DNA of 47,815 nt from positions 1 through 47,815 of the forward strand of contig WFTT01000066.1 of NCBI GenBank assembly GCA_015485335.1. The letters are read 5' to 3'. The stretch comes from Robiginitomaculum sp. Its GTDB lineage: Bacteria; Pseudomonadota; Alphaproteobacteria; Caulobacterales; Maricaulaceae. Positions 398 to 24,169 of this stretch are shown here, piece by piece. Under the pieces are notes generated by a model. The model was not told the DNA's origin, made no database searches, and saw nothing but the letters and a program-made list of their open reading frames with translations. Each line of letters begins with the position of its first letter. Position 1 is the first letter of the stretch. A program made the translations under genes and the position numbers.

Positions 398-1600
398 CTA
401 ATCCGTATATAGTAGATAAGGTGCCCGACGTTTTTTGAAACGATCAAGTCCCTTTTGCCAACTGGCACGAATTTCCTCTGCGGTTTTGCCGGCCTGGACC
501 TGTTTTCTGAAACGGTCCGTTCCCATCAGTTTGTCCAACCAGCCCGGGCGGTCCAAAAACGGTGCCTCCAGTGCCTTGGCGCGCGTATACCAGTCAATAA
601 ATATCTCTATCCTCAACCCCTCAATCTGCGCCTGCCGTAAATCCTGTCCATAAAGCGTCTTGCCTTCCAGCTTGGGGTGCAAAGACGCCCCGGGAATCGG
701 ATGAGGGGTAAAGATCATGTTCCCATAGGCCTTTTGCGCACCACCCAGCACCTGAAAGGGAAGATCCGTTCCACGACCAACACTGATCGCGGTTGCCTCG
801 AACAAAGCCAAGGAAGGATACAGACGAATGGATTGTGCATTGGGAAGGTTGGGCGATGGTGCTACCGGCACCTCATACGTGGTGGAACGGGTATATTGCG
901 CCACCGGGATTACCGTAAGATCACAATGCATGGCCTTGCCCAGCCACCCCTCGCCATTGATCATGCGCGCCAGCTCACCCAGGGTCATGCCATGCAAGAC
1001 CGGTATGGGATGCATACCGACAAAGCTCTGGAATGAAGGTTCCAGTATAGGTCCATCGATATAGGCGATGTTGGGGTTGGGACGGTCGAGCACCACCAAG
1101 GGAATATGATAGCGCGCACAGCTTTGCATGACATAATGAAGTGAGCTTAGATACGTATAAAACCGCACCCCCACATCCTGTATGTCAAATACCAAGACAT
1201 CCAGATTTTTCATATCATGTTTAGAGGGCGCCTTCTTGTCACCATAGAGGGAAACAATAGGAAGAGCGCGCCGCGCATCCATCTCGTCCGCAAGGACAGC
1301 ACCGGCGTCCGCGGTGCCAAACACCCCATGCTCGAGCGCAAATAGTGCGCCCACCTCAATGCCCTCTGCAAGAAGAACATCGACCAGATATTGCTCCCCC
1401 ACCCGCGAACTCTGATTGACGATCAAGCCGGTCCGCTTGCCGGCAAGGGCCTGATAAACAAGATCATGCCTCTCTGCGCCGGGAAGAGGCCCGGCCCTGT
1501 GTTGAGCCGCCCAAACGGGGGCTGCCATCCTCATCATGGCAAGGCTTGCCATTATCCAGCACAAGACAACACGACGCACAGGTCGCGCCTGCCCGGACAT
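398..1600 (-). CDS. namZ: NamZ-like exo-beta-N-acetylmuramidase (DUF1343, GH171)
   Basis: This is a DUF1343-family protein. The characterised member, Bacillus subtilis NamZ, removes single MurNAc residues from the non-reducing end of peptidoglycan chains. Conserved stretches seen: GKRTGLIVNQSSRV near the N-terminus, ALEHGVFG, IVSLYG, then DVLVFDIQDVGVRFYTYLSS, VLDRPNPN, DGPILEPSFQSFVGMHPIPV, HGMTLGELA and APSPNLPN. A hydrophobic signal peptide ending near AAPVWAAQ predicts export. I start at the ATG at 1600, which gives a normal Arg-rich n-region; a TTG at 1636, directly after the stop of the upstream amidase gene, is the alternative. It is the second gene of an amidase-muramidase operon, which fits stepwise periplasmic digestion: peptide removed first, then the naked glycan trimmed. 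Confidence 0.87.
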   Translation of the reverse strand: MSGQARPVRRVVLCWIMASLAMMRMAAPVWAAQHRAGPLPGAERHDLVYQALAGKRTGLIVNQSSRVGEQYLVDVLLAEGIEVGALFALEHGVFGTADAGAVLADEMDARRALPIVSLYGDKKAPSKHDMKNLDVLVFDIQDVGVRFYTYLSSLHYVMQSCARYHIPLVVLDRPNPNIAYIDGPILEPSFQSFVGMHPIPVLHGMTLGELARMINGEGWLGKAMHCDLTVIPVAQYTRSTTYEVPVAPSPNLPNAQSIRLYPSLALFEATAISVGRGTDLPFQVLGGAQKAYGNMIFTPHPIPGASLHPKLEGKTLYGQDLRQAQIEGLRIEIFIDWYTRAKALEAPFLDRPGWLDKLMGTDRFRKQVQAGKTAEEIRASWQKGLDRFKKRRAPYLLYTD

Positions 1601-1636
1601 GGGGTTAACAGTGAGATATCGCTTTGGGGTACTCAA

Positions 1637-2599
1637 TTACGGTAAATCGGTTTGGGTGGGTTCATCCACTACCAATAGCGCATCCAGTTGATCACGACGA
1701 TATTTTTCGATCAGGGCAAACAGGATGGCGGTACTGTCCAAAGTTGGCTCGCTGGTAACTTCAGATGGCCTGAAATGCAGCTGGAATGCCCGCAATACAT
1801 TGCGGGTTTGCTCGTCCAGCTCTCCCGTAGGCTCAATTTTATAACCATAGGCCCCTAGTGCTTTTTGCACATTGATCAACGGCATGGGGTTTTGGCGAAA
1901 CATTTCCCAATACTTCACCACGGTGTCATCATCAAACCAAGCACCGATCCCCAGTTTATACAAGCGTTGCCAGGGAAAGCGCGGGCCCGGGTCGATTTTA
2001 CGATCCGGCGCTATGTCTGAGTGCCCGATGATATTTATAGGTTTGATCTCCGGGTGTCGTTGCAAGATATCCCGCAAAAGCTCGATAAGCACTTCCATCT
2101 GGGTTTCAGGAAAATCCGGATAGAAACATATCCGCTTTGCCAACGCCTCTTCCTCACCATCACTCATCATATCAATGACCGCATTGCCATGGGTGCAATA
2201 GGTTTGGTTGACCACTTCTATGCCTATGGACTGATCATTCAGGCCGCTTTTGCCAGCCCAATAGCTGCGCCCCGCATGCCAGGCCCGCTCAGTTTCCGGC
2301 ACCAGCTTGTAAACCTCGAGCGTGTCATTTGTATACGTTTCATCGCTGGGGTCTGGCACCAGATAGTGCGAACTGACAGGCCTGGATGAAGCCTTTGTCA
2401 GGATATTGACTGATTCCTCAAAATTCGAAGATGTATGGTGAATAACAATGATACTCACACGGCTATTGAAATTTTCCGAGGGCAGATAAATTTCTTCCTG
2501 CGTGGTGATGCACGAGGAGAGGAACAACACGCCAATCAACATAAAAACATTGCCTATGGCCATATTTTTATAAGAAGGTGAGGAGAAAAAACGATCCAT
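1637..2599 (-). CDS. AmiD-like N-acetylmuramoyl-L-alanine amidase lipoprotein
   Basis: A zinc amidase (Amidase_2/AmpD fold) that cuts the bond between MurNAc and L-alanine of the stem peptide. Zinc ligands by family alignment are H54 (VIHHTSS), H193 (IIGHSDIAPD) and D203 (KIDPGPRFPW); K201 and E128 (SIGIEVVN) match the catalytic positions, and AWHAGRS is the usual substrate-cleft motif. A lipobox LSSC with C30 makes it a lipoprotein. Residues about 235-290 (NVQKALGAYGYKIEPTGELD...AFQLHFRP) form a C-terminal peptidoglycan-binding domain as in E. coli AmiD. It is the first gene of the minus-strand operon and is divergent from the TonB receptor, sharing a 345-bp promoter gap. The downstream muramidase follows without a gap. 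Confidence 0.9.
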   Translation of the reverse strand: MDRFFSSPSYKNMAIGNVFMLIGVLFLSSCITTQEEIYLPSENFNSRVSIIVIHHTSSNFEESVNILTKASSRPVSSHYLVPDPSDETYTNDTLEVYKLVPETERAWHAGRSYWAGKSGLNDQSIGIEVVNQTYCTHGNAVIDMMSDGEEEALAKRICFYPDFPETQMEVLIELLRDILQRHPEIKPINIIGHSDIAPDRKIDPGPRFPWQRLYKLGIGAWFDDDTVVKYWEMFRQNPMPLINVQKALGAYGYKIEPTGELDEQTRNVLRAFQLHFRPSEVTSEPTLDSTAILFALIEKYRRDQLDALLVVDEPTQTDLP

Positions 2600-2944: not shown

Positions 2945-5917
2945 ATGGCTAGAAACTCAAAGAAATCATTCAAACTGAGACTGCACAGGAGTAACTTCCT
3001 GATGGGTACGGCACTGGCAGCCGGTCTGGCTGTGATCAGTGCACCGGCCTATGCCCAGCAGGCAGGTACGGTCAACGGCCAGGTTACCAATAGCAATGGC
3101 ACTGGCCTGGCCGGGGTTGCGATCGAGGCCACCAGCCCGGTTTTGCCACAGCCCAGAACAACGACTTCCGGGGCCAATGGGCGCTATTGGCTGCCTTTGC
3201 TGCCTCCCGGCGAATATATTCTGACCTTTAAAAGCCCAGATGGCAGCGTGGTTAAACGCGCCGCTTCGGTCCTGTTGCAACAAAAGATCAAAGTGAATGT
3301 GACCTTTGGCAATCAGGAAGATGCCATCGTGATCACTGGCACGAAGAATTACATCGATACCGGTCGGGCCAGTTTGAAGAATACGCTGAATACGGCAATG
3401 ATTGAAGGCGTGCCGATCGGGCAGGAATATCGTGACCTGCAAAAACTGATCCCCGGCGTCCAGTATAGTGAAGATAGCGTTCGCGGCCCCAGTGCCGGTG
3501 GTAGTGGTCAGGACAACAATTACCAGTTTGATGGCGTTGATGTAACGCTACCCTTGTTTGGCACGCTGAGCGCTGAACCTTCGACGCATGATATTGATCA
3601 AGTCTCCATCATACGCGGTGGTACGACAGCGCGTGGATTTAACCGCTCTGGTGGGTTTTCAATCAACACGATCAGCAAGCGCGGCACAAACGAGTTTCAT
3701 GGAGAAGCCAGCTATAAGGTGCAAGCTTCTGGACTGACCAGCAAACAAAAATCCGGCAGTGCCACACAGTTTCAGGAAGACCAGAAATGGATCACAGCCA
3801 GTCTGGGTGGCCCAATCATACAAGATAAACTGTTTGCCTATGGCTCATACTATCGCCCAACCGTTAGCCGGAAAAACGTTAGTAATGCCCTGGGTACGGT
3901 TCCCGATTTTAAGAGCACTCGCAATGAGTACTTTGGCAAGCTGACCTTTGCTCCGACAAGCAATATCCTGCTGGATGCCAGTTATCGGACTTCGGATCGC
4001 GCCTCCAGAAACCGGGGGGTTGGTCAATTTGCGGCCCCCTCGACCTCTCAGGGGGATGATGCCAGTCAGGACATTATCATTGTCGAAGGGTCATGGATAA
4101 TGGACGAGAAAAGTTCGTTCAGCTTCAAGTTTACGGACTTTCAAAACAATACGGCTTCACGGCCTGACAATCTTTTCAACCTGAATATTGGTCTTGGTGA
4201 TCCACTGAACATCAATGCCCTTGATCAACAGGGATTGTTTCTTGTGCCACAGCCCATTACCGGCGCAACGGCCTATAACTCCTTTATTCAGCCAATTATT
4301 GACCAATATGGTTTCGTAGGGGCCAATGGTGTACGCACCGGCGGTGGTACCATTGGTGGTGCCAGCACGATTAACCGCCAGGATTTTTCGCGCACCAGCT
4401 TTGAGGTTGCCTTTGACCGCACCTTTGAAACAGGTTCAATGACCCATGATGTGCATATTGGCTACCAATATCAGAGTATTGGCGAAGACCTGGCGCGCCT
4501 GTCCAACGGTTATGGCTTCATCACCGTTCCTGGCGGCAGAACCACGGCGTCTGATGGTGTAACCCCAGTGTTTTTCCAGGCTCGTGTCAGTGCGCTCAGT
4601 ATTGATGGACTGGCCAATGCCTCAGGGCCAGTACCAAAATCAATCAAGTCCAAAGCACGCCTGCAAAGCTTTGAGATCAATGACACCATTGAAAAAGGGA
4701 ACCTTACCTTCAATGTTGGCGTTTTGGTCAGCCAGGACGAGTTGTTTGGACAAGGGCTACGCAAAAAATCAGGTACGATCTCTGGTTTTGAAGTCGCACC
4801 CGGCCATCGCTATAAGATGAAGAAGATCAAGTGGAATGACATGATCCAACCTCGTCTCGGGGTGGAATGGCAACGTTCCCCGGTAACGTCTCTTTATGCC
4901 AATTATGCCCGCTCAAACCCTGCAGCGTCATCGCTGGCCCGGGCGGCAAGCTGGGATCGTAACATCCGCCGTAATGTCGATGTATCCTTCGATGCCAATG
5001 GTAATTTCATTGAGATTGATCCGGTTCGTTCTTCTTCTGGTAAAGTGTTCCAGGACAATATCAAACCCCGCAAAATTGATGAATATCTTTTGGGTTGGAA
5101 CCATGACGTGAGTGACGAACTTGTGGTTCGTGTACACACCCGGTATCGCCATGCAAAGCATTTCTGGGAAGATACCAACAACACGGCGCGTCTGTTTTCC
5201 AATGCGCCCCCCGAAATACAGGCCTTGGGACTGTATGTGCCTAACCTGAATGATATTCGGGCAGAAATTGGTGGCTCTTCCTATGTGATTGCCCAGCTCG
5301 ATAATGCTCATACCAACTATTACGAAGCCGGTTTTGAAGCTGAATATAATTCTGACAACTGGTCAGTGACGGCGTCTTATGTCTATTCACGCTTTACTGG
5401 TAATTTTGATCAGGACAACACCACCACAACGAATGATGCAAATACGTTCATTGGTTCATCCTTTATTGCCGATGGTCCCGGGCGTCAGCTCTGGGACAAC
5501 AGACAAGGCAGACTTAAAGGCGATCGTCCGCATCAATTTAAAGTCTATGGCTTTTATCGTCTGCCATGGAATGCCCAAGCCGGTGCATTCATGTCTTATC
5601 AGTCAGGGCAACCTTGGGAAGCCTGGGATGTAGAAGTTTATCGCTCCTTGACCCGCAGCCGTAGTGATACGAGCCGTTTTGCCGAACCTGCCGGCTCACG
5701 CAGAACCTCTTCGCACTTGCAGGTTGACCTGAACTACACCCAGGACTTTGTTGTCCTGAACGGTTATAACCTGCAATTCAGAGCAGACCTGTTTAATGCC
5801 CTGAATAGCCAGACCGGCTATAACATTCAGAACAAAGTCAACAGCGCCGGGTTTGGAACACCGCGCAGTTTCTTCCGCCCTCGCCGTCTGCAACTGACGG
5901 TTAAGGCCTCCTTCTAA
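2945..5917 (+). CDS. TonB-dependent receptor with N-terminal carboxypeptidase-regulatory-like domain
   Basis: A 990-residue outer-membrane active transporter, driven by TonB-ExbBD. Signal peptide residues 1-37 end at APAYAQQ. Residues about 40-110 (GTVNGQVTNSNGTGLAGVAIEA...LLPPGEYILTF) form a CarboxypepD_reg-like Ig domain. The plug follows from about 125 (VPIGQEYRDLQKLIPGVQYS, NNYQFDGVDVT, DIDQVSIIRGGTTARGF, GGFSINTISKRGTNEFHG). The rest is a long barrel with alternating aromatic strands, ending in ...QLTVKASF with the terminal Phe typical of outer-membrane proteins. The ATG at 2945 has a strong GGGAGG upstream. It is transcribed away from the murein amidase/muramidase operon and followed by a strong terminator. 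By context it imports peptidoglycan fragments or amino-sugar oligomers; the substrate is inferred. Confidence 0.92.
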   Translation: MARNSKKSFKLRLHRSNFLMGTALAAGLAVISAPAYAQQAGTVNGQVTNSNGTGLAGVAIEATSPVLPQPRTTTSGANGRYWLPLLPPGEYILTFKSPDGSVVKRAASVLLQQKIKVNVTFGNQEDAIVITGTKNYIDTGRASLKNTLNTAMIEGVPIGQEYRDLQKLIPGVQYSEDSVRGPSAGGSGQDNNYQFDGVDVTLPLFGTLSAEPSTHDIDQVSIIRGGTTARGFNRSGGFSINTISKRGTNEFHGEASYKVQASGLTSKQKSGSATQFQEDQKWITASLGGPIIQDKLFAYGSYYRPTVSRKNVSNALGTVPDFKSTRNEYFGKLTFAPTSNILLDASYRTSDRASRNRGVGQFAAPSTSQGDDASQDIIIVEGSWIMDEKSSFSFKFTDFQNNTASRPDNLFNLNIGLGDPLNINALDQQGLFLVPQPITGATAYNSFIQPIIDQYGFVGANGVRTGGGTIGGASTINRQDFSRTSFEVAFDRTFETGSMTHDVHIGYQYQSIGEDLARLSNGYGFITVPGGRTTASDGVTPVFFQARVSALSIDGLANASGPVPKSIKSKARLQSFEINDTIEKGNLTFNVGVLVSQDELFGQGLRKKSGTISGFEVAPGHRYKMKKIKWNDMIQPRLGVEWQRSPVTSLYANYARSNPAASSLARAASWDRNIRRNVDVSFDANGNFIEIDPVRSSSGKVFQDNIKPRKIDEYLLGWNHDVSDELVVRVHTRYRHAKHFWEDTNNTARLFSNAPPEIQALGLYVPNLNDIRAEIGGSSYVIAQLDNAHTNYYEAGFEAEYNSDNWSVTASYVYSRFTGNFDQDNTTTTNDANTFIGSSFIADGPGRQLWDNRQGRLKGDRPHQFKVYGFYRLPWNAQAGAFMSYQSGQPWEAWDVEVYRSLTRSRSDTSRFAEPAGSRRTSSHLQVDLNYTQDFVVLNGYNLQFRADLFNALNSQTGYNIQNKVNSAGFGTPRSFFRPRRLQLTVKASF

Positions 5918-6002: not shown

Positions 6003-6860
6003 TTATTGACCTTGGCGGGCCATTTGCAATGCCCCGTGCAGCGCATCGCCCAAGGGCGCAACCAGCATGGCACGCACATCCGGCGACAGCCAGGGCAAAA
6101 TCAAATCCGCCAATCCTCCTAACAAGGCACAACGGGGAATGCCGGCCTTGTAAAGCGCCCGGATCATCATTTCGATATGATGGCCCGCATGTTGGGTAAT
6201 CACCCGGCCATGATGGTCTCCCTCTTTGGCCGCCTGCGTTACCATCGGGGCCAGCGTCGCATAATCGGTGGCGGTGGCGGTATCCATCCAGCTGACCACC
6301 TGGTCCGTCTGGTTGTCATAACGGTGGAACAACGCCCGGGTCAGATCTGAATGCTCGCTGCGCCCATCGGCGGCGCGCAGGGTTTTGCGGATGGCCTGCA
6401 GGCCAATATAAGCCCCGCTGCCCTCGTCAGAAATCGGAAAGCCATAACCACCAACCTTGATATCACGACCAGCAACCTGGCCCAGGGCAATGCTGCCGGT
6501 GCCAATGATGACGATCCCCCCATCCTGTCCCCCATGAGCGCCGATATTGGCAATATACCCATCGGTATTGATAGTCACAGAAGCAAAGGGAAAGCCCTTT
6601 GCCAATAATGCTTCTTTGGCACCAATACGATTGATACCGGCAATCCCCATGCCGGCCCGAATGCGGGGGCTATCCGCCGGGCTCAACCCAGCGTCTGCCA
6701 TGGCCAGTTGATAGGCCTCTTCTATGGCGGCAAAAACCTTATCCGTGCCAATGCGGGCATTGGCCGGCCCGGCCTTGCCGTGCCCGATAATCGTACCCGC
6801 CTTGTCGGTCAGACGAGCCCTACACGTACTGCCACCGGCATCAATTCCCAGAAAAAACAT
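6003..6860 (-). CDS. nagK: BadF/BadG-type N-acetylglucosamine (possibly also MurNAc) kinase
   Basis: An ASKHA-fold sugar kinase of the BadF/BadG/BcrA/BcrD family, 285 residues. The phosphate-1 motif is FLGIDAGGSTCRARL at residues 3-17. IVIIGTGSIALGQ is the phosphate-2 region, GYGFPISDEGSGAYIGLQAI the family signature, and CALLGGLAD the adenosine motif. Family members phosphorylate GlcNAc at O-6; clostridial MurK of the same family acts on both MurNAc and GlcNAc. Because this locus encodes MurQ, which needs MurNAc-6-phosphate, and shows no PTS or AmgK-type kinase, a dual MurNAc/GlcNAc kinase is the simplest reading, but it is inference. It is co-transcribed with the TPR-sulfotransferase gene 17 bp upstream. 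Confidence 0.87.
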   Translation of the reverse strand: MFFLGIDAGGSTCRARLTDKAGTIIGHGKAGPANARIGTDKVFAAIEEAYQLAMADAGLSPADSPRIRAGMGIAGINRIGAKEALLAKGFPFASVTINTDGYIANIGAHGGQDGGIVIIGTGSIALGQVAGRDIKVGGYGFPISDEGSGAYIGLQAIRKTLRAADGRSEHSDLTRALFHRYDNQTDQVVSWMDTATATDYATLAPMVTQAAKEGDHHGRVITQHAGHHIEMMIRALYKAGIPRCALLGGLADLILPWLSPDVRAMLVAPLGDALHGALQMARQGQ

Positions 6861-6877: not shown

Positions 6878-8440
6878 CTATTCCTCATCTGCCAACGCGC
6901 CAAGTACCGTTTTCAGGCGATCCAACCGATTGCCATAGCGTTTCCATCGGCCAATTGAATCGCCATGAAGGCGTTGCCTAACCTGAACCGAACTGGCCGT
7001 ATCAACGGCAGCGGCATTATCCTGAAACTGCAAACAGGCTGCCTCCCAGTCCAGCCCACAAAATGCCAACAGGCGACGGGTCTGGTTTTCCTGATCGCGG
7101 ATAATATCCTCATAGCGCACTTCCATAAAGCGATCGGCGGGCAAATGGGCACGCCAATGGGCCATCAGGGCATCAAATTCGCGGTAATAGACAGCCACGT
7201 CTTCCAGTGCGTAAGTGTAATTAAACGCCTCCTTGTGGGTCGCAAAAAGCTGTCGGTAATTGGATAGGCAACTGTCCATGGCACCGCGTCTGAGCGTTAT
7301 GATCCGCGCCTGGGGCAAGGCTTGGTGGATAAGGCCTGCATAAAGGAAATTATGGGGGGTTTTATCGGTCACCAGTTGAGTGCCATGCCCCAGCACCTTG
7401 ATTTGTTCCAGATAACGTTGACCAACCACCGCCAGATCGATGGATTGTGCCGCCCGCAAGGTTTCTGCATCGGTGATGGCCCGGCTGTCGGTTTTGCTGG
7501 TTTCCTTGATCAACCAGGCAAACAGCTCCAGCTCGCCGGCAGAGGTCACCGCAGAGTGCGACGAGAGAATACGGTCAAGCAAGGTCGTGCCAGTACGCGG
7601 CAGGCCAATTATAAATACCGGAAGGTTTTGCGCTTGTGTTGATGATGGTAGCGCGGTCTGTACAGAAAGCGCTTTAGCCGTCTCAAATAGTCTGGTATCC
7701 GCCTGTTGACGATAGCGAATTTGTGCCCGTTTGCCTTCCTTTGCCTTTTCCAACCAGTCAAAACTTTCTTCAAACCGCTCCAGATCTTCCAGGGTTTTGG
7801 CAATAGCATGCCCCAACAGCAACTGCCCCTCAACATCCCCTCTGGCACTATCAAAAAGTGGTTTTAGTGTATCCAGATAGTGGTTATCAGGGCGTTGGTG
7901 TTCCAGCGAGACCAGGGCGAACCAGGCCTGATAGAATTCTGGCCTGAGGGTGGTGGCCTCTTTATAGGCCGTTCTTGCTGTCTCAAAGTCGCCAGTAAAC
8001 TGGGCCGTCACCGCCAGATTAAAATGAAACTCGGCACGGCGGGGAGCTTTTCTGGTGGCCAGTTCGAACAGGGGAATGGCCAAGTCATGATAGCCTGAAC
8101 GGCTATAGACCAGCCCGATCATATCAGCCAGATGCGCATCTTCTATGCCAACCTTTACCATATGGTCGGCGCGGGTCCTGGCCGCCTCAAACTGGCCAAG
8201 ACTTGCTAACGCTCTGGCATGATAGGCCTGATAAGTCTGGTTGGATGGTTCCAGTTCGTTTGCCTTGGCCAAGAACTCCAATGCCTTGGTGTGTTGGCCG
8301 TATTCCGCAAGCACCAGGCCAATAAAGAAATAGGCCAGCGGATTTCTTTCATTCTCCTGCAGAGCTTGAACGGCACGCGCATAAACTTCGTCATAGTTTT
8401 TCGCGACCAAAAGCTTCATGCCTGAGGTAAATGTCAACAT
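6878..8440 (-). CDS. TPR-repeat sulfotransferase-like protein
   Basis: The N-terminal half (about residues 10-210) is a set of TPR helices, for example NPLAYFFIGLVLAEYGQHTK and RAEFHFNLAVTAQFTGDFE. The C-terminal half is a sulfotransferase domain: LPVFIIGLPRTGTTLLDRIL holds the P-loop-like 5'-phosphosulfate motif for PAPS, and ITLRRGAMDSCLSNYRQLF the 3'-phosphate region. No signal peptide is seen. I start at the ATG at 8440, which has GGGGG a few bases upstream; a GTG at 8452 is possible. It heads a two-gene operon with the amino-sugar kinase and is divergent from the deaminase/deacetylase genes across a gap holding the best operator pair. Proteins of this architecture are often seen near TonB receptors, but their acceptor substrate is unknown. 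Confidence 0.85.
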   Translation of the reverse strand: MLTFTSGMKLLVAKNYDEVYARAVQALQENERNPLAYFFIGLVLAEYGQHTKALEFLAKANELEPSNQTYQAYHARALASLGQFEAARTRADHMVKVGIEDAHLADMIGLVYSRSGYHDLAIPLFELATRKAPRRAEFHFNLAVTAQFTGDFETARTAYKEATTLRPEFYQAWFALVSLEHQRPDNHYLDTLKPLFDSARGDVEGQLLLGHAIAKTLEDLERFEESFDWLEKAKEGKRAQIRYRQQADTRLFETAKALSVQTALPSSTQAQNLPVFIIGLPRTGTTLLDRILSSHSAVTSAGELELFAWLIKETSKTDSRAITDAETLRAAQSIDLAVVGQRYLEQIKVLGHGTQLVTDKTPHNFLYAGLIHQALPQARIITLRRGAMDSCLSNYRQLFATHKEAFNYTYALEDVAVYYREFDALMAHWRAHLPADRFMEVRYEDIIRDQENQTRRLLAFCGLDWEAACLQFQDNAAAVDTASSVQVRQRLHGDSIGRWKRYGNRLDRLKTVLGALADEE

Positions 8441-8547
8441 ATCAGCCCCCACATGTGCCTATCCCTGCGCAAAAACCCGTATCCATGGCCATAGTGTTAC
8501 GTTCCCCAATACCGAATGACAATCGGGAAACCATATCAAAACCCAAT

Positions 8548-8565
8548 TGGTATTATAGTGGTATT
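8548..8565. promoter_or_regulatory. Putative NagR operator, perfect TGGTATT-N4-TGGTATT
   Basis: Two identical heptamers start at 8548 and 8559, separated by ATAG. They lie between the divergent sulfotransferase-kinase and deaminase-deacetylase operons, 34 bp before the likely start of the latter. This is the cleanest member of the set. From memory, the Xanthomonas NagR box was described as a direct repeat of this heptamer with 4-bp spacing; that should be checked. Confidence 0.72.
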
Positions 8566-8598
8566 GTATTAGGGGCCAAATTTGGTTATTGGTGCCAT

Positions 8599-9663
8599 AT
8601 GTCCAATTGCAATCATACCCAGATAGCTCCTTCTGCACAGGCACAAACACTGATGCATCAGGAGAGCTGGCAAGCACCAGCCTGTGTTGCCCGGCAAAGG
8701 CTGGCTAATGGTGATGTGATTGAGGCCTTGGGCGCGCGCCTTCGCGCCACGCCACCAGCCCTGGTGGTTACCTGTGCCCGCGGCAGTTCAGACAACGCGG
8801 CAAGCTATGCCAAATACCTGATTGAAACCCATATCGGTACCCCTACTCTGTCGGCGGCCCCATCTGTTAATTCGGTATACAATACTCATCAGAACATGGG
8901 GCATGTGCTATTTCTGGCCATTTCGCAATCGGGCAAAAGTCCAGACATTCTGGCGGCGGCCCAGGCTGCCAAAACCGGCGGCGCCCTGGTGGTTTGCCTG
9001 GTCAATGAAACAGCTTCACCTTTGGCGCAATTGGCAGACATTGTGATCCCCCTGCAGGCAGGGGCCGAGCGCAGCGTAGCCGCCACCAAGACCTTTATTA
9101 GCAGCCTGAGCGCCCTGGCCCATCTGGTGGCGGTTTGGGGACAAAATGCAGAACTGCTCGCGGGATTAAAGGCCCTGCCCGCCATATTAGAGCGCGCACT
9201 GGCCTGCGATTGGTCTGCGGCCATACCCATATTGGTATCCGCAAACAGCCTGTTTGTGGTTGGTCGCGGTCTGGGCCTGGGGGTAGCACAGGAGGCCGCG
9301 TTAAAATTTAAAGAAACCTGCAGCCTGCATGCCGAGGCGTTTAGCGCCGCCGAGGTCAAGCACGGCCCCATGACCCTGGTCAAAGAGGGGTTTCCGGTTT
9401 TGATATTCTCTACCCATGATGAAACCCAACCCAGCGTAGATGATGTGGCCAGCGCCTTTATCATGCGCGGGGCGCGGGTATTGTCGGCGGGACATATTTA
9501 TGACGGTGCATTGGCGCTAAGCACAGCTCCTTGCGCAGTGGCGGAACTGCGGCCGCTGGTACTTATTCAGTCTTTTTATAATTTTGTGAACGCCCTGGCG
9601 CTGGCCCGTGGCCAAAATCCGGACCATCCCCCCTTTTTAAACAAGGTGACGGAGACTTTGTGA
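8599..9663 (+). CDS. nagB-II: Glucosamine-6-phosphate deaminase, SIS-domain type (NagB-II)
   Basis: A tandem SIS-domain isomerase like the second half of GlmS but without the glutaminase domain. It converts GlcN-6-P to fructose-6-P and ammonia. Sugar-phosphate motifs: TCARGSSDNAASYAKYLIE (first SIS), FLAISQSGKSPDILAAA, AERSVAATKTFISSLSALA, and KFKETCSLHAEAFSAAEVKHGP in the second SIS domain. MHQESWQAPACVARQ near the N-terminus is the usual beginning of the NagB-II family. I favour the ATG at 8599 (354 residues); the ATG at 8653 is also possible. Its stop overlaps the start of nagA, and the pair forms the standard GlcNAc-6-P to Fru-6-P step of the locus. Confidence 0.9.
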   Translation: MSNCNHTQIAPSAQAQTLMHQESWQAPACVARQRLANGDVIEALGARLRATPPALVVTCARGSSDNAASYAKYLIETHIGTPTLSAAPSVNSVYNTHQNMGHVLFLAISQSGKSPDILAAAQAAKTGGALVVCLVNETASPLAQLADIVIPLQAGAERSVAATKTFISSLSALAHLVAVWGQNAELLAGLKALPAILERALACDWSAAIPILVSANSLFVVGRGLGLGVAQEAALKFKETCSLHAEAFSAAEVKHGPMTLVKEGFPVLIFSTHDETQPSVDDVASAFIMRGARVLSAGHIYDGALALSTAPCAVAELRPLVLIQSFYNFVNALALARGQNPDHPPFLNKVTETL

Positions 9664-14076: not shown

Positions 14077-14257
14077 CTGGAGATTGATATACGTTAGAAT
14101 CTTATTTTAGGGGAATTTTTTCTTAGACTATACCGCGATCGCGGGATAATCGTGATCCGGTTCCTGCTGGGCCGTTGCGCTTAATCTCGCCACGCTCGCA
14201 TAGGGCCTAATGGTTGTGCTGTGAAAAACCAGCTGTAAGAGATTCGGGTGAGTATAT

Positions 14258-17425: not shown

Positions 17426-18838
17426 TTAGGGGAGCGTTTTGATGGTGGTGGCGCTTTGCAAATAGCTGCGATCGACCGATGAGCGCAGGGGCACGATGGG
17501 GGTGATCGACACCCCGTTCAGCGTGCCTTTATAGAGCGTGCCATCCGCCTTCAGATAGCCAAGCCCATGTACATCATGAATGACATAAGGCTTGCCCTGA
17601 TCATGGCCGACCAGCATCAGAACATGACCCGGAATATAGATCAGATCACCGACTTTACCGTGTTTTAGCCGATCAATCTTGTCCGCTAGAGGCGCGTCTT
17701 TTTCATAGCGTGTATTGATACCAATGGCGCTGCGGCCCTGATCGCCGGAATTGCGCGGCAGTTTGATACCAAAACTCTTATATACTTCGGAAACAAAGCC
17801 GGTGCAGTCGCGCCCGTTAAAGCGATGGCCCCAGCCATAACGCTCGCCCAAAAATTTGAAGGATTGGCGAATAATATTGGCGCGGGTGAAGGGTAGATAG
17901 CCCACATGCACATCGGCTTTGCGTTGGATCAGGGCGTGTTTTAGCGCCAATGTACCGTCCTCTTGGCGCACCGGCATCAACACCATATGGCTAAGATAGG
18001 GGTTTTGCCCGTAAAGATTATGCGCCAACGCCTTGGGGCGCGATAAGGGCAGGCGCACCCCCATGTCCAATTGCACTTCGGATACTTGTGGCTCTTCGGG
18101 GTTAAAAACGGTGAACACCTTGTCCCCGGTCACAACCAGAAAATTATCATGGTTGGCATAGTCCAGCACCGCGTCCCGCGCGCCCATGGCAATGGCGGTT
18201 TTGGGCACCCAGGCGATATAATTATAGGATTGTACCAGCGCCCATTGCCCATCGGTGCTGGTGTGTAAAACCGCCACGGCATCACCCGGAAAAAGCGCGG
18301 ATTCTTGAAAGCGCTCTATATCGCGATCCTTCGCCCCTTCACTGAAAATCAAATCATGGGTGGGATAGCTGCGCATGGATGTGCGCCGCACGGCGAGCGC
18401 AAACTTGACCGCGTTCTGATCCGCGATGGCATCCAGATTGAGCATGGCCTCATAACGCGCAAAATCTGCCTCTGTGACCGGCGTGCCATCTTTATAAATA
18501 CGCGGGCTTTTGGAGATACGGCTCACTGTGCGCATCCGCGCGATCAGATCATCACGGGTCAGCGTATCGGCCATGGCATTAAGGTCGTAAAGCGTGGGAT
18601 CCTGCGCCGTGTTATTGGCATTATAGGCAGTGATGCCCTCAGGCGATAACAACACCTTGTCCATTTTGCGCGAAATCCAGAAGTCTGCGTTCAGGTGTTT
18701 AGGGGATACCCCGATAACGTCTGAAACAAACGGATCTTCAAAGCCCATATTGGTGCCCGGGCTTTGGTTGTTTTCCGGACTACAGGCAGCTAGAAAAAGC
18801 GCCAGCGCCGAACCAAGAAAAAGCGTTTTCATTTTCAT
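17426..18838 (-). CDS. SH3 plus NlpC/P60 cysteine endopeptidase lipoprotein (YkfC-like)
   Basis: Starting at the ATG at 18838, the protein begins MKMKTLFLGSALALFLAACS, a lipoprotein signal with C19. Two SH3-like regions (about residues 150-310: MRSYPTHDLIF..., GDAVAVLHTSTDGQWALVQS, IAWVPKTAIA) precede the NlpC/P60 domain. The catalytic Cys is C345 in NGRDCTGFVSEVYKSFGI, with H405 in PGHVLMLVGH and H421 in VIHDVHG. This architecture matches YkfC-type gamma-D-glutamyl-L-diamino acid endopeptidases, which cut free murein peptides between D-Glu and meso-DAP. It is encoded 13 bp after the DUF819 membrane protein, suggesting cut-and-import coupling. Specificity is from family knowledge only. Confidence 0.88.
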   Translation of the reverse strand: MKMKTLFLGSALALFLAACSPENNQSPGTNMGFEDPFVSDVIGVSPKHLNADFWISRKMDKVLLSPEGITAYNANNTAQDPTLYDLNAMADTLTRDDLIARMRTVSRISKSPRIYKDGTPVTEADFARYEAMLNLDAIADQNAVKFALAVRRTSMRSYPTHDLIFSEGAKDRDIERFQESALFPGDAVAVLHTSTDGQWALVQSYNYIAWVPKTAIAMGARDAVLDYANHDNFLVVTGDKVFTVFNPEEPQVSEVQLDMGVRLPLSRPKALAHNLYGQNPYLSHMVLMPVRQEDGTLALKHALIQRKADVHVGYLPFTRANIIRQSFKFLGERYGWGHRFNGRDCTGFVSEVYKSFGIKLPRNSGDQGRSAIGINTRYEKDAPLADKIDRLKHGKVGDLIYIPGHVLMLVGHDQGKPYVIHDVHGLGYLKADGTLYKGTLNGVSITPIVPLRSSVDRSYLQSATTIKTLP

Positions 18839-18851
18839 AGTGTGCTCATCA

Positions 18852-20015
18852 TCATGAAAGAGTAGAGAGAATTTTACCGACCAGCAAACCACCCCCCGTG
18901 CCGATAATATAACCCAGCATGGCCATCAATACCCCGATGGGGATCAAAGCCCGCGAATAGGCCGCCGCCAGAATGGGGGCCGAGGCCACGCCGCCAATAT
19001 TGGCCAGCGAGGCCACGCCGCAGGAAAAAAGGTCAAGTTTGAAAATTTTGGCCGCCACCAGCATGAACATGCCATGCAGAATGAGGACCATCAGGCCCGC
19101 GATAATAAAGAGCGGTGCCTGCGTCAGTTCGGCAAAATTGGCCCGCGAGGCAATTAGCGCCACAATGCCATAAAGCAATATGGTGCCCAGCTCGCTGGAT
19201 CCGGCAATTCGCCCCAACCGCGTCATGGCCCCTAACGCCCCCAACACGGTGACGATCAGCACCGTCCATGTGGTTTGGGAGAAAAAGGCCGACGTGGGTA
19301 AAAACCCAGCAGCGTATTGCGACAAAGCCGAAGCCATCAGCCCCGCCCCGATCAGAAACAACAAGGAGGCGGCATTCATCTCGCTCTCGCCTTTTTGGGC
19401 GCGGGCTTCGATCCTAGCACTGATCGTTTCAATCAGGCTGGTATCGCTTTTGCTCCACAGATTGAACCTGGCCGCATGGGGTACCAGCGCCAAGAGGATC
19501 ATCACCCACAGGGCATAATCAATGGAATCCATCAATAGGGTATAGCCCATGCTGGCATCAGGAATATTGAGCGCGCCCTGCACCGCCACCATATTGCCGG
19601 TGCCGCCCATCCAACTGCCGCTAAGGGCAGCAAAGGTCATCCATGCACTGTCCGGCAACCAGGTTTTCAGGATCAAGAAGGTGATGACAAAGCCCGCACC
19701 AATGCTCAGCGAAGCGGCAGTAAAGGCGCTCAGCATACGCGGGCCCAGGGCGGCGATCTGGCGAACATCTCCCTTCAGCAAGAGGAGGAAAATCATCGCC
19801 GGCAATAAATTGCCCTTCATCGCCTTATAGGTGGCGGTAATGGCCTCTGTATTGCTCCATACTTTGAAGGTGGAAAGCAGCATAATGACAAAATAAAGGA
19901 TCACAATGCCAGGCAGGACTTTAAAAAGTCGGGTTTTACTATTGTTTTCTGCCCAAGCGATCACGCCGCCAACAAAAAACAGAACCGCCAGATAGGCAAA
20001 GCCACCAGTGATCAT
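18852..20015 (-). CDS. DUF819 (YjcL-like) membrane protein, candidate peptide/amino-acid transporter
   Basis: A 387-residue protein with about ten transmembrane segments. Family features include TFAALSGSWMGGTGNMVAVQGAL, DASMGYTLLMDSIDYALWVMIL and the C-terminal GVASLANIGGVASAPILAAAYSRALIPIGVLMAMLGYIIGTGGG. DUF819 proteins have no firmly known function that I can recall. Repeated Gly/Ala-rich half-helices look transporter-like. Co-transcription with the murein peptide endopeptidase and divergence from an NhaC-family transporter suggest uptake of di- or tripeptides or amino acids from stem peptides, but this is inference. Confidence 0.8.
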   Translation of the reverse strand: MITGGFAYLAVLFFVGGVIAWAENNSKTRLFKVLPGIVILYFVIMLLSTFKVWSNTEAITATYKAMKGNLLPAMIFLLLLKGDVRQIAALGPRMLSAFTAASLSIGAGFVITFLILKTWLPDSAWMTFAALSGSWMGGTGNMVAVQGALNIPDASMGYTLLMDSIDYALWVMILLALVPHAARFNLWSKSDTSLIETISARIEARAQKGESEMNAASLLFLIGAGLMASALSQYAAGFLPTSAFFSQTTWTVLIVTVLGALGAMTRLGRIAGSSELGTILLYGIVALIASRANFAELTQAPLFIIAGLMVLILHGMFMLVAAKIFKLDLFSCGVASLANIGGVASAPILAAAYSRALIPIGVLMAMLGYIIGTGGGLLVGKILSTLS

Positions 20016-20097
20016 GGGGAAACCCTTTTGCCCGTAACAGAAAAAACGCGCTATTCACATATTCATACCACGGAAATGCATCGGGGGAAGACACTTT

Positions 20098-20115
20098 TGG
20101 TATTAGATTGGTAAC
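20098..20115. promoter_or_regulatory. Putative NagR operator, TGGTATT-N4-TGGTAAC
   Basis: Heptamers start at 20098 and 20109, again exactly 11 bp apart, in the 202-bp gap between the divergent DUF819 and NhaC-family genes. More TGGT half sites follow at 20119 and 20127, giving four in 33 bp. This extends the probable NagR regulon to the peptide branch. Confidence 0.6.
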
Positions 20116-20163
20116 AGCTGGTTGATTGGTTTTGCCTTCCCCTTGCGTTTATGAAAGGGTATC

Positions 20164-20180
20164 GTCTAATACCATTAGAC
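20164..20180. promoter_or_regulatory. Perfect palindrome with AATACCATT core
   Basis: GTCTAAT-ACC-ATTAGAC is a 7-3-7 perfect inverted repeat, 37 bp before the ATG of the NhaC-family gene. It contains AATACCA, the reverse of the regional TGGTATT heptamer, so it may be a second NagR site. It may instead be an operator for another factor or an mRNA hairpin just ahead of the ribosome binding site. Confidence 0.5.
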
Positions 20181-20217: not shown

Positions 20218-21594
20218 ATGGGCTGGCTTTCTGTGTTACCGCCATTGGTGGCAATTATTGTTGTTATCTGGCGCAAGGAAGTGATTCTGGCCCTGTTCCT
20301 GTCGCTGTTCACCTCAGAAATTCTGATGATCGCGCACAAAACGCCCCTTTTGCCACTGACCGGCTTTCTCAATGCGCTGGAACGCATCACGGCAGTGTTT
20401 GCAGACGCGGGCAATACCCGCATTTTGATCTTTTCCTTGCTGATCGGGGCCTTGCTGGCCTTTATTCGGGTGTCTGGCGGAGTGACCGCCATGGTGGACA
20501 AGCTGGTCAATAGTGGTCTGGCCAAGGGGCCGGTCTCGGTGGGGGTGTTGACCACGCTGACCGGGATTGTGATCTTTATTGAGTCCAATCTAAGCGTTCT
20601 CACCGCCGGGATTTTATCCCGCGGCCTGTTCGATAAATATGGCATGAGCCGCGCGCGATTGGCCTATATTATCGACAGCACCAGTGCGCCGGTTTGCATT
20701 CTGATCCTGCTGAATGGTTGGGGTGCCTATATACTGGCGCTGCTTAGTGGCTATGAAATGGAGCAGTCACCGGCACAAATTTTATGGGGCACCGTGCCGC
20801 TGAACTTCTATGCCCTGGTGACGCTGGGCATCGTGTTTTACACGGTGATCACCACCAAGGTGTATGGCCCGATGAAAGATGCCGAGATTAAAAACGAAGT
20901 CGTCCCCATCGATTACAAACACGAATACCCGCCCACCAACGCGCTGTTCATGGTGTTACCGCTTGCCACCATGGTGTTTGGCATGATCGGCTTTATGTTG
21001 TGGACGGGCCATGGAGATCTGGCCAAGGGCAGCGGCTCAAAATCTGTACTTTATGCCACGGCGCTGGCCTGTGTGGTGGGATATTTGATGATGCTGTTCA
21101 GCCGTAAATTCAGTCATATCCAATTGGTAGAAACCGGCTTTACAGGCATGGGCGAAATTCTGCCCCTGGTGACCATTGTGCTCTTTTCCCTGGCGCTGGG
21201 GGCGAGTTTGAAGGCCTTGGGCACGGGCATTTTTATTGCCGGTATGGTCGGCGACTTTCTACCACTGTTTCTGGTGGTGCCGATGCTCTTTCTGGCGGGG
21301 GCGCTGATTTCGTTTACCACCGGCACGTCTTGGGGCACCTTTGCCATTCTGATCCCGCTGGGTATGCCACTGATCCAGGAATTGGGCCTGCCCCCATCGC
21401 TGGTACTGGCCGCCATATTGGGCGGTGGGGTGTTTGGGGATCATTGCTCGCCCATCTCAGACACCACGGCGGTGTCGGCCATCGCCAGCGGCAGTGATCT
21501 GCTGGAACATGTACGCACCCAATTGCCCTATGCGCTCTTTGCCGGCAGCATAACGCTGGTTCTGTATGTGATTGCCAGCCTGATCATGATTTAG
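20218..21594 (+). CDS. NhaC-family Na+/H+ antiporter or amino-acid exchanger
   Basis: A 458-residue multi-spanning protein of the NhaC superfamily (COG1757). Diagnostic segments: FSLLIGALLAFIRVSGGV, GIVIFIESNLSVLTAGILSRGL, SRARLAYIIDSTSAPVCILIL, TTGTSWGTFAILIPLGMPL and GGGVFGDHCSPISDTTAVSAIA, the conserved ion-binding signature. Start ATG at 20218 with AGGGGA 6 bp upstream. Characterised relatives exchange Na+/H+ or organic anions such as malate/lactate. Here it faces the DUF819-endopeptidase operon and converges on lysA, so a role in moving lysine, DAP, lactate or sodium created by murein catabolism is possible. If the SSS importer uses sodium, this protein could recycle that ion. Confidence 0.88.
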   Translation: MGWLSVLPPLVAIIVVIWRKEVILALFLSLFTSEILMIAHKTPLLPLTGFLNALERITAVFADAGNTRILIFSLLIGALLAFIRVSGGVTAMVDKLVNSGLAKGPVSVGVLTTLTGIVIFIESNLSVLTAGILSRGLFDKYGMSRARLAYIIDSTSAPVCILILLNGWGAYILALLSGYEMEQSPAQILWGTVPLNFYALVTLGIVFYTVITTKVYGPMKDAEIKNEVVPIDYKHEYPPTNALFMVLPLATMVFGMIGFMLWTGHGDLAKGSGSKSVLYATALACVVGYLMMLFSRKFSHIQLVETGFTGMGEILPLVTIVLFSLALGASLKALGTGIFIAGMVGDFLPLFLVVPMLFLAGALISFTTGTSWGTFAILIPLGMPLIQELGLPPSLVLAAILGGGVFGDHCSPISDTTAVSAIASGSDLLEHVRTQLPYALFAGSITLVLYVIASLIMI

Positions 21595-21624: not shown

Positions 21625-22887
21625 TCAAAGCCAGGTTGGCACGTTTTCCAACGACAGAATATCTTCCAGCGCCGGACGCTTCCGGATAACGTCAAACTTG
21701 CCTCCCCGGACCAGCACTTCGGGTACCAGTGGGCGGGTGTTGTACTGTCCAGCCTGTACCGCGCCATAGGCCCCGGCGGCCAGCATGGCGACCAGATCAC
21801 CGTCCTTCATAACGCTCAGCCGGCGATGATTGGCAAAGGTGTCGCCGGTTTCGCAAACCGGGCCGACAATGTCATAGGTTTCGCGCTGATGATCTTTGGG
21901 CTCGGCCACGGGTTTGATCGCATGATAGGCCCCATAAAGCGCCGGGCGCAGCAGATCATTCATGGCCGCATCCAGGATCAGAAAATTGCGCGCCGAGCCG
22001 TGTTTTACGTATTGCACGCGCGATAACAGCACCCCCGCATTACCGGCAATGGCGCGGCCCGGCTCGAAGATCATTTTCAGGTCCAGCCCCTTAGTGTGTC
22101 GCCGAACCATGTCCATATAATCAGCGACCGTGGGCAAGGTGTCTTCGTCCTGATTGTAGACAATGCCTAAACCGCCGCCCATATCAAACGTGCGGATATC
22201 ATGGCCATCGCGGCGCAAATCCAGAACTAGATCCAGCCCCTTTAATAGCGCCGTTTCAAACGGGGCGAGGTTGTCGATCTGACTGCCGATATGCATATCC
22301 ACGCCGGTCACCTCTATGCCAGGTAAATCATGCGCCTGTTTGTACACATCCCGGGCCTGATCAAGATTGACGCCAAATTTATTTTCGGCCTTGCCAGTTG
22401 AGATCTTTTCATGACCACCGGCGCTGACATCGGGATTGATGCGCAAGGCAATGGCGGCAACGGTGTTTTGCGCACAAGCCACATCATTCAGGGCGACCAG
22501 TTCGGGCGCGGACTCGATATTGAACTGGTAAATACCCGCGCTCAGGGCTTTGCGCATTTCATCCCGAGATTTGCCGACCCCGGAAAAAACAATCTTATGG
22601 GGCGCAATCCCGGCGCGCATAGCCCGTTCCAATTCGCCGCCGCTAACCACATCAGCACCGGCCCCAAGAGAGGCCAGCAAGGACAAAACCGCGAGATTAG
22701 AATTGGCCTTGACCGAATAGGCAATCAACGCATCCATATGGGCGCAGGCACCAGCAAAGATTTGGTAATTGTGGCGCAGCGCCGCGGCGCTATACACATA
22801 AACCGGGGTGCCCACGGCCTCGGCTATGCGGCTCAAGGGCAGGTTTTCAACGCACAATTGCCCGTTTGAATAGTGAAAATCCGACAT
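21625..22887 (-). CDS. lysA: Diaminopimelate decarboxylase
   Basis: A fold-type III PLP enzyme that decarboxylates meso-DAP to L-lysine, 420 residues. PLP Lys K60 lies in AYSVKANSN. Other motifs: GAGADVVSGGELERA, HEKISTGKAENKFG, GVDMHIGSQI, TFDMGGGLGIVY, the FEPGRAIAG phosphate/substrate motif, VGPVCETGD with the inter-subunit Cys, and MLAAGAYGAVQAGQYNTRP. All key features of a functional LysA are intact. It follows the M19 dipeptidase gene by 43 bp on the same strand. In most bacteria lysA serves lysine synthesis; placed here it could instead, or also, recover DAP freed from murein peptides. Whether a second lysA exists cannot be seen. Confidence 0.93.
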   Translation of the reverse strand: MSDFHYSNGQLCVENLPLSRIAEAVGTPVYVYSAAALRHNYQIFAGACAHMDALIAYSVKANSNLAVLSLLASLGAGADVVSGGELERAMRAGIAPHKIVFSGVGKSRDEMRKALSAGIYQFNIESAPELVALNDVACAQNTVAAIALRINPDVSAGGHEKISTGKAENKFGVNLDQARDVYKQAHDLPGIEVTGVDMHIGSQIDNLAPFETALLKGLDLVLDLRRDGHDIRTFDMGGGLGIVYNQDEDTLPTVADYMDMVRRHTKGLDLKMIFEPGRAIAGNAGVLLSRVQYVKHGSARNFLILDAAMNDLLRPALYGAYHAIKPVAEPKDHQRETYDIVGPVCETGDTFANHRRLSVMKDGDLVAMLAAGAYGAVQAGQYNTRPLVPEVLVRGGKFDVIRKRPALEDILSLENVPTWL

Positions 22888-22930
22888 GCGCTTATGGCTC
22901 CCAAGCGTGCACAGGGATCAGGCTTGGCGC

Positions 22931-24169
22931 CTATGGGTGGGCGTGGGCCTGAACGGCCGCCAGCACCCGCAACAAATTACCGCCCCATATTTTTTCGATA
23001 TCGGCCTGGCTATAGCCACGTTTGACCAATTCTTTGGTAACATTGGGGGTTTCGCTGACATCCCACCAGCCTTCGATCTTGCCACCGCCATCAAAGTCAG
23101 AGGCAATGCCAACATGATCTATGCCAACCAGCTTGACCACATAATCGATATGATCAACGAGGTCGCCCACATTGGCCGCCGGGCCCAGCGCCTTGGCGGC
23201 TTCCATTTTTTTGTCAAACAGGGCTTCGGTCTCTTCGTCCATAGACAAAAAGGCCATATCATCTTCCAGACCCATTTCCTTGCGCACCTTCATTTTAAAG
23301 GCCTGTTGTTCCGGGGTGAGGTTTTTCAAATACCCGCCATAGGCCACGATCTGAATAACACCGCCCTTGGCAGCCAGCGCCTTTAATTGTTCGTCATCCA
23401 GATTACGCGGATTATCCACCAACGCCTTGACCCCGGAATGGGATGCAATTACCGGCACCTTTGATAAGGCCACGGCCTGCATCATGGTGTCCTTGCTGGT
23501 GTGCGAAACATCAACCATGATCCCGGCTTTATTTAAGGCGACCACCAATTCCTTGCCCAGCGGAGACAGGCCGCCGTACAGGGCTTTGGTCTCGCCGCGG
23601 CTATAACTGGGGTTGGAACTGTCGGCAAACTGGTTATGCCCCATGTGGGTAATGCCCAGATAGCGCACGCCGCGTTTTTCCCACATGGCCAGATCATCGA
23701 TAGAATTACCCAAAGGAAAAGCATTTTCCATGCCCAGCAAAATGGCCTTCTTGCCGCTTTGGTGAATGGCGCGCACCTCTTTGGCAGTGCGTGCCAGCGC
23801 CAGCTGGTCCGCATATTTTTCCGTCAGGCGCATAATCGCCTTATAGCGCGTCTCGGCGATTTCGCGCGCTTTGGCCACGCCCGCATCGTTCATTTCACCT
23901 TGCGGCGTATAAACAATCATGAAAGCGGCATCCAGACCACCGTCCTGCATTTTCTGGACACTGATCTTGCCGTCCTTATTGGTCCACGGGTCCATATCTT
24001 CGGCAATATATTCCAGTTCCAGATCAATATGGCTGTCCAGCGTCAGCACGTTTTCATGCACGGCCACGGGGTCCAGGGCCTGGGTGGCCACTTTTGGCGT
24101 TTCGCCTTGGGAGCAGGCAGTCAAAGCAAGGGGCAGACAGGAAAAGGCGAGTAAGGTTTGGCGCAACAA
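22931..24169 (-). CDS. Renal-dipeptidase-like M19 dipeptidase lipoprotein
   Basis: A zinc dipeptidase of family M19. Members hydrolyse dipeptides including those with a C-terminal D-residue, so L-Ala-D-Glu or D-Ala-D-Ala are credible substrates. The lipobox LTAC with C19 predicts a lipoprotein. Metal motifs: LDSHIDLE (D45/H47/D49 region), LGMENAFPLG with the bridging Glu, MVDVSHTS and IASHSG with His ligands, and HVGIASDFDGGG. At 412 residues it is normal. It is the first gene of the dipeptidase-lysA operon. Because M19 enzymes accept D-residues at the C-terminal side, the locus could do without the dipeptide epimerase used by other bacteria; none is seen here. Confidence 0.92.
   Translation of the reverse strand: MLRQTLLAFSCLPLALTACSQGETPKVATQALDPVAVHENVLTLDSHIDLELEYIAEDMDPWTNKDGKISVQKMQDGGLDAAFMIVYTPQGEMNDAGVAKAREIAETRYKAIMRLTEKYADQLALARTAKEVRAIHQSGKKAILLGMENAFPLGNSIDDLAMWEKRGVRYLGITHMGHNQFADSSNPSYSRGETKALYGGLSPLGKELVVALNKAGIMVDVSHTSKDTMMQAVALSKVPVIASHSGVKALVDNPRNLDDEQLKALAAKGGVIQIVAYGGYLKNLTPEQQAFKMKVRKEMGLEDDMAFLSMDEETEALFDKKMEAAKALGPAANVGDLVDHIDYVVKLVGIDHVGIASDFDGGGKIEGWWDVSETPNVTKELVKRGYSQADIEKIWGGNLLRVLAAVQAHAHP

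Follow-up and report, generated by a model that had tools for sequence, protein, structure and literature searches.

The window analysed is a 47,815-nucleotide stretch of Robiginitomaculum sp. DNA (assembly GCA_015485335.1, 2.9 Mb) whose first letter is the left end of contig WFTT01000066.1 (contig C66). Open reading frames (ORFs) were searched with Pfam and other profiles, and 17 genes with family matches were placed at 398-24169. They encode NamZ, an AmiD-like amidase, an Oar-like outer-membrane receptor, an amino-sugar kinase, a TPR-sulfotransferase, NagB-II, NagA, a GntR/UTRA regulator, a GlcD-type oxidase, MurQ, an SSS symporter, a serine hydrolase, an NlpC/P60 protein, a DUF819 protein, an NhaC-type transporter, LysA and an M19 dipeptidase. 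An initial annotation had placed a set of murein enzymes in this one 24-kb block; every enzyme it named was recovered with a family match, and the TPR-sulfotransferase is the one member that it had not listed. Family identity, export signals, synteny, co-occurrence and operators together indicate that the block is probably a locus dedicated to peptidoglycan (muropeptide) utilisation and controlled by a single GntR repressor of the NagQ type. Substrates, transport directions, the ligand and induction were assigned from family knowledge.

Degradative steps were placed outside the cytoplasm because signal-like hydrophobic N-termini (NamZ, serine hydrolase) or lipoboxes (amidase, NlpC/P60, M19) were found on the proteins concerned; the kinase, MurQ, NagA and LysA had no signal-like start. 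Simple rules were used for these calls. The NamZ protein (398-1636, minus strand) has both domains of its family (NamZ_N, 8e-75; NamZ_C, 4e-27; PDB 4jja, 9e-102) and is predicted to be an exported GH171-type exo-beta-N-acetylmuramidase. Next to it lies an AmiD/AmpDh2-3-like N-acetylmuramoyl-L-alanine amidase (1637-2599, minus) with Amidase_2 and PG_binding_1 domains and a lipobox at residue 27 (AmpDh3, 1e-55; AmiD, 4e-49). The serine hydrolase (15826-17412, plus) matches the beta-lactamase/AmpH fold; its putative motifs STTK, YDN and HTG were assigned by our own reading and picked from the window's own sequence, and placing them is no independent test. The SH3-NlpC/P60 lipoprotein (17426-18892, minus; SH3 and NLPC_P60 domains) is of the gamma-D-Glu-diamino acid endopeptidase type, its Cys and His positions aligning with PDB 3m1u (9e-17). 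The M19 dipeptidase lipoprotein (22931-24169, minus), with a lipobox at residue 16, aligns to solved relatives (PDB 3b40, 1e-74; 2rag, 1e-69), as do the amidase and the NlpC/P60 protein.

The receptor (2945-5917, plus) has CarboxypepD_reg and OMP_b-brl_4 matches and ends in F; no Plug domain was matched in it by Pfam. Oar-like is our own name for this protein, which is 58-97% identical across four aligned copies. No PDB relative was found at E 0.001, and its structure model (mean pLDDT, predicted local distance difference test, 29) was too poor for a fold search, as was that of the DUF819 protein (mean pLDDT 45). An SSS-family sodium symporter (14258-15808, plus; best PDB relative 5nv9, 3e-37) is the candidate importer of N-acetylmuramic acid (MurNAc) or N-acetylglucosamine (GlcNAc); the block has this carrier and no phosphotransferase system (PTS) gene. 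The DUF819 membrane protein (18852-20015, minus; Pfam, 4e-97; 71-93% identity in five relatives) is a candidate importer of stem-peptide pieces, and the NhaC-type transporter (20218-21594, plus; Na_H_antiporter match) a candidate carrier of diaminopimelate (DAP) or lysine. A peptide-linked role of DUF819 is hinted at by Neisseria meningitidis, since in 75 genomes of that species its gene adjoins an M15 peptidase gene, according to the available part of the report (PMC12671195).

The BadF-family, NagK/MurK-like amino-sugar kinase (6003-6860, minus) is nearer to a probable GlcNAc kinase (PDB 1zc6, 4e-42) than to a MurNAc/GlcNAc kinase (8zo3, 4e-16). The NagB-II glucosamine-6-phosphate deaminase (8599-9663, plus; SIS domain; NagB_SO3506, 3e-102, below the NF046059 cut-off) was given an inferred start at 8599, because the match begins only at residue 72 of the long ORF, whose first position is 8431. 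NagA, the GlcNAc-6-phosphate deacetylase (9660-10838, plus), scored over the TIGR00221 cut-off. MurQ, the MurNAc-6-phosphate etherase (13120-14004, minus), scored over the cut-offs of NF003915 (1e-103) and NF009222, and reached 277.6 bits with TIGR00274 against a cut-off of 302. MurNAc dissimilation requires such an etherase with NagA and NagB, and all are present in the block. A GlcD-type FAD (flavin adenine dinucleotide) oxidase (11742-13136, minus) is a candidate D-lactate dehydrogenase, and LysA (21625-22887, minus; TIGR01048, 473 bits, over the cut-off) is a DAP decarboxylase. The TPR-sulfotransferase gene (6878-8452, minus; Pfam Sulfotransfer_3, 8e-51) is co-directional with the kinase gene, and the C-terminal half of its product is weakly like protein-tyrosine sulfotransferases in PDB.

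Conservation and co-occurrence in relatives

Window proteins were compared by tblastn with loci and genome stretches of relatives; counts are limited to the stretches compared. The block was found in eight genomes from five genera of one alphaproteobacterial family: its own genome (G000) and G068, G069 and G079 of the same genus, and G018, G001, G025 and G057 of four other genera. The nearest named loci were in Robiginitomaculum sp. metagenome-assembled genomes (MurQ identity 94, 87 and 74%). The block is not a product of chance, because the set recurs in the seven other genomes. MurQ, NagQ, NagA, the receptor, AmiD, the sulfotransferase, the SSS carrier, the serine hydrolase, NlpC and DUF819 were present in all eight copies. 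NamZ was present in seven, the four of the genus included (G025 has only a 66-residue match), as were NagB-II (not seen in G001) and the kinase (not seen in G025). These counts include two-piece matches (serine hydrolase, sulfotransferase and kinase in G079; M19 and AmiD in G068), and the NlpC match of G001 is flagged with a stop. The set lies on one contig in six of the eight genomes and on two in G069 and G079. Contigs L006 and L012 of G069 overlap at 88.8% over 956 bp and are not claimed to be contiguous. Outside the genus, G057 lacks LysA alone of the 17 genes; the remaining 16 fit within about 24 kb.

Some copies show local changes. In G079, transposase-like ORFs (our naming) lie left of the separated peptide half (L109, 77-5852), a possible cause of the split, and the serine hydrolase, sulfotransferase and kinase (L004, 6599-17993) each match in two overlapping pieces, a frameshift-like pattern that may be a sequencing matter. 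An Amidohydro_3 protein, whose start we read as D-aminoacylase-like, lies between NlpC and the serine hydrolase in G018 (L128, 5635-7188), and an S66 LD-carboxypeptidase lies near the NamZ remnant of G025. Two short GlcD-matching fragments stand between murQ and nagQ in G068 (L110, 13052-13188), where the oxidase seems to be decaying. GlcD was rejected as an essential member, with fragments only in G068 and no match between MurQ and NagQ in G069.

Searches independent of the nag genes found the NlpC protein in seven genomes, 4/18 in the genus and 4/299 in the order (own genome in both); the order-wide threshold was E <= 1e-20, and neither G057 nor any of the three genus relatives belongs to the 4/299. 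Each of those four has MurQ and nag genes. All seven also carry MurQ and nagQ/nagA; MurQ shares the NlpC contig in 6/7 and nagQ/nagA in 5/7; the exceptions are G069, whose contig ends in MurQ, and G079, which is split. The synteny of murein enzymes with the nag regulator and nagA that had been predicted for relatives was thus largely recovered. True MurQ (E below 1e-90), NlpC and monofunctional LysA share one distribution in the genus, each being present in the same 4 of its 18 genomes and absent from the other 14; the remaining MurQ matches of the genus have E above 1e-6. A NamZ match was found in 8 of 59 genomes of the family, and the NamZ-positive genome G002 was left out of the locus comparison.

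The monofunctional LysA is 84-100% identical in the four locus-bearing genus genomes. The other 14 have one LysA match each, of 30-33% identity (four flagged with a stop), 12 of them in frames of 869-907 residues and the others in frames of 465 and 1420. The own genome also has a decarboxylase of this other kind; this copy, the only one of its kind subjected to the profile scan, has 868 residues and scored 1180 bits as a bifunctional aspartate kinase/DAP decarboxylase, above the cut-off; no fused-type LysA match was found in G069 (87% complete). The locus LysA therefore looks like a second, locus-specific copy that biosynthesis does not need, as would suit a catabolic conversion of DAP to lysine. 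An ordinary biosynthetic role is thought unlikely given the fused enzyme.

The TPR-sulfotransferase stands beside the kinase, NhaC or SSS genes in all locus copies (L128, L129, L131 and L133 included). It was rejected as a locus marker: it is not locus-specific, since matches at E <= 0.001 occur in 17 of 18 genus genomes, and in four that lack the locus the match is of 45-50% identity. Nine flanking genes were compared with 14 stretches, and only two recurred, both in G079: a LuxR-like gene and the carboxymuconolactone-decarboxylase fragment left of NamZ. On the right, 24359-29214 holds three genes with Sel1 repeats and two others that match no Pfam family.

Regulator and operators

The regulator (10861-11637, minus) has GntR and UTRA domains, with YvoA and DasR as nearest PDB relatives. 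NagQ is described, in the available part of the source, as a GntR regulator of alphaproteobacteria, betaproteobacteria and some gammaproteobacteria with a tandem-repeat motif (PMC5343134). Here a GntR-family gene is clustered with nagA/nagB, and a tandem-repeat operator was found at the putative target promoters (11-bp tandem at three, looser half-sites at two). Judged by its sequence, the locus regulator fits the NagQ kind; the comparison with PMC5343134 concerns the tandem-repeat form, not the motif letters. The earlier label NagR-like was dropped, NagR being of the LacI type in the same partial source.

At the amiD/receptor promoter the operator cluster (2776-2858, plus) comprises the tandem TTGGTAATAAAATGGTATTA (2776-2795) and TGGTATTT (2851-2858). 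The sulfotransferase/nagB promoter has the 11-bp tandem TTGGTATTATAGTGGTATTG (8547-8566, plus), and the DUF819/NhaC promoter (20063-20174) has TTGGTATTAGATTGGTAACA (20097-20116) with two inverted half-sites. Half-sites at the murQ/SSS promoter (14035-14080, minus) are TGGTATTC, TGGTATTA and TGGTATG, at 13-bp and wider spacing; those before the M19-LysA genes (24222-24250, plus) are TGGTATTA and TGGTAGCA. All six exact copies of TGGTATTA in the window lie within these five promoters, in the sugar and peptide halves alike. TGGTATT occurs 9 times in the 1177 bp of the five promoters, against 0 in 3197 bp of nine other, hand-picked non-coding stretches and 14 in the whole window; none of 20,000 random placements reached 9, the largest value being 5. 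The shared operators proposed initially were borne out by these counts.

With at most one mismatch, the strict 11-bp tandem was found three times in the 2.9-Mb genome, always in the block and once at each of three promoters. Four further matches had three mismatches, and a reversed-pattern control gave 6. At each promoter, half-sites have been retained in the genus relatives that were compared, G079 with its separated peptide half among them; those between amiD and the receptor are likewise kept in relatives, with one half of the receptor tandem altered in G068. A looser rule also picks up the tandem in G018, G001 and G057, at receptor or nagB promoters. The operator between receptor and amiD could also control the peptide half, because the DUF819 and NlpC genes continue from amiD in the same direction in G018, G001, G025 and G057. 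A DasR-like palindrome (TGGTNTANACCA, 2 mismatches) was rejected: it gave 26 matches where 15.4 were expected (26 was reached in 1 of 100 shuffles), and 0/26 lay within the five promoters. A search of Rfam at gathering scores for a lysine riboswitch or other RNA control returned only two tRNAs in the window.

Proposed pathway and alternatives

Dead bacteria hold much nitrogen and carbon in the form of murein, whose uptake from outside by Gram-negative bacteria is, to our knowledge, poorly known. In the proposed pathway, the Oar-like receptor would carry murein fragments across the outer membrane. Partly lipid-anchored enzymes would act on them in the periplasm: the AmiD-like amidase would remove stem peptides, NamZ would release MurNAc from non-reducing ends, NlpC/P60 would cleave the gamma-D-Glu-DAP bond, the serine hydrolase would trim D-Ala and M19 would split L,D-dipeptides. 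The SSS carrier would bring in the amino sugars, and DUF819 and NhaC would transport (L-Ala-)D-Glu and DAP pieces. Fructose-6-phosphate would then be formed in the cytoplasm through the kinase, MurQ, NagA and NagB-II, GlcD would convert MurQ-derived D-lactate to pyruvate, and LysA would convert DAP to lysine. A phosphorylated amino sugar may lift NagQ repression at the five promoters.

Several observations weigh against this reading. M19 and NhaC were found in six of the eight copies (not G001 or G025), LysA in four, all of the genus, and GlcD in three (G000, G079 and G057). The peptide half of G079 lies on a separate contig. Two other NamZ-positive genomes of the family differ in the stretches compared: G043 has only a sugar locus, with no peptide half, and in G017 NamZ stands alone. 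The operators of murQ/SSS and M19 lack the 11-bp spacing, the loose tandem was not found in G025, and distant locus L007 lacks the tandem at the two promoters viewed, with one half-site at nagB/kinase and none before MurQ. Loose tandem pairs were discarded as a statistic (4 in the window; mean 1.5 and largest 5 in 30 shuffles). The substrates of the receptor and carriers, which may be as proposed, and the specificity of the candidate MurNAc/GlcNAc kinase were counted as weak points, and the constant TPR-sulfotransferase is without a place in the pathway; we know of no role for it in murein breakdown. The initial annotation had a candidate for each step, which was not supported: the block has no D-Glu-handling gene, and no exported GlcNAc-releasing GH3 was found, the single GH3 of the genome being NagZ-like without a signal (GH20, GH73 and others were not searched).

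That same NagZ-like GH3 would suit a cell that recaptures and burns fragments released from its own murein, and AmiD, NlpC and MurQ act also in recycling in other bacteria. Such recycling is nevertheless improbable here. The AmpG-NagZ route would place both genes in the locus, but AmpG was found on contig C57 and the NagZ-type GH3 on C101, beside ORFs that we take to be scpA/scpB; neither is in the block or on C66. Their location elsewhere therefore weakens the recycling explanation, yet it exposes the lack of an exported GH3 to release GlcNAc. Moreover, 14 of 18 genus genomes do without NlpC and MurQ, and the outer-membrane receptor accompanies the locus in 8/8 copies.

Less probable still is a chitin/GlcNAc locus, like the TonB-receptor nag clusters of Caulobacter, that acquired MurQ and peptidases. 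In the available parts of two sources (PMC13046382, PMC5343134), the core of such clusters does consist of NagA, NagB, a receptor and a regulator of the GntR type, but no chitinase or hexosaminidase family was found among the 17 genes, and MurQ, NamZ, the amidase and NlpC, useless on chitin, are conserved together with the locus. Two merely adjacent regulons, sugar and peptide, as the different contigs of G079 and the sugar loci without a peptide half in other lineages and G043 might suggest, are the most improbable of all, given the same operator in both halves, the separated half of G079 included, and the consecutive AmiD, M19, DUF819 and NlpC genes beside the receptor in G018 and G057.

The initial interpretation is thus supported in part: its core, a single murein-foraging regulon with its own receptor, has the backing of the computed synteny and of operators that link the two halves, and the claims of a candidate for every step, of a NagR-like regulator and of novelty in joining both halves are not supported. 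At even odds, it is a family-wide alphaproteobacterial muropeptide-foraging regulon, with both sugars and the stem peptide under one NagQ switch and an Oar-type receptor, to which one genus added a second DAP decarboxylase that turns the cross-linking residue of foreign murein into lysine. What the locus provides, in a lineage outside Bacteroidota, is a receptor that can be tested, two candidate carriers of peptides (DUF819 and NhaC) and a proposed catabolic role of LysA. NlpC-DUF819 with MurQ and NagQ are suggested as genomic markers for murein-foraging bacteria.

Comparison with known systems

The initial annotation held that known loci contain either the MurNAc or the peptide part. However, a murein polysaccharide utilisation locus (PUL) of about 27 kb with both sugar and peptide halves has been published for a Urechidicola symbiont, a member of the Bacteroidota (PMC10199937), and the novelty of the block is lower than first thought. 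As far as the available part of that paper describes it, the PUL resembles the block in outer-membrane receptors, murQ, nagB, an ampD amidase, GH171, dacA, nhaC and a sodium/iodide co-transporter. Named for the PUL alone were two susCD pairs, ampG, an L-Ala-D/L-Glu epimerase and GH3/GH18/GH10, whereas the Oar-like receptor, NagQ, NlpC/P60-DUF819, M19, LysA and the sulfotransferase are the block's own; no epimerase or GH3 is among the block genes. The NhaC-type carriers of both suggest a common role, perhaps with DAP. No alphaproteobacterial locus of this kind was found in the literature searched, among the matches listed.

The murTKQ/ampG cluster of Tannerella forsythia, which serves murein from the environment, also has a MurNAc carrier of the sodium-symporter superfamily, a MurNAc kinase and MurQ; the available parts of its four reports (PMC5388701, PMC5790795, PMC7670621, PMC10465942) describe neither a catabolic nag branch nor one for lysine. 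GlcNAc clusters of Caulobacter, likewise an alphaproteobacterium, share a TonB receptor, NagA, NagB and a likely GntR-type regulator, but differ in a PTS carrier and a hexosaminidase, and the available part of the source names no MurQ, NamZ or stem-peptide enzymes (PMC13046382).

Six MurNAc loci of other lineages (L007, L013, L018, L022, L023 and L030) all have MurQ and a NagQ homologue, with NamZ in 5/6 and NagA plus NagB-II in 5/6. Unlike the block's receptor, those of the three tested (L007, L018, L023) are of the Plug-plus-barrel type, and no NlpC, DUF819, M19 or LysA match was found in flanks of up to 10 kb per side. In NORP118, another alphaproteobacterium, the MurNAc cluster of L007 (188-12984) has a Plug-type receptor, two GntR regulators, a GH3, GlcD and a major facilitator superfamily (MFS) carrier, and no NamZ match; to judge by its genes, it is a different solution to the same task.

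Set against a Bacteroidota-type PUL, the block lacks a SusC/SusD pair, its receptor being of the OMP_b-brl_4 type with no SusD match among the 17 genes, and unites a receptor, exported enzymes, importers and a regulator in one place. By analogy, the block can be said to function in the manner of a PUL, from which its receptor type sets it apart.

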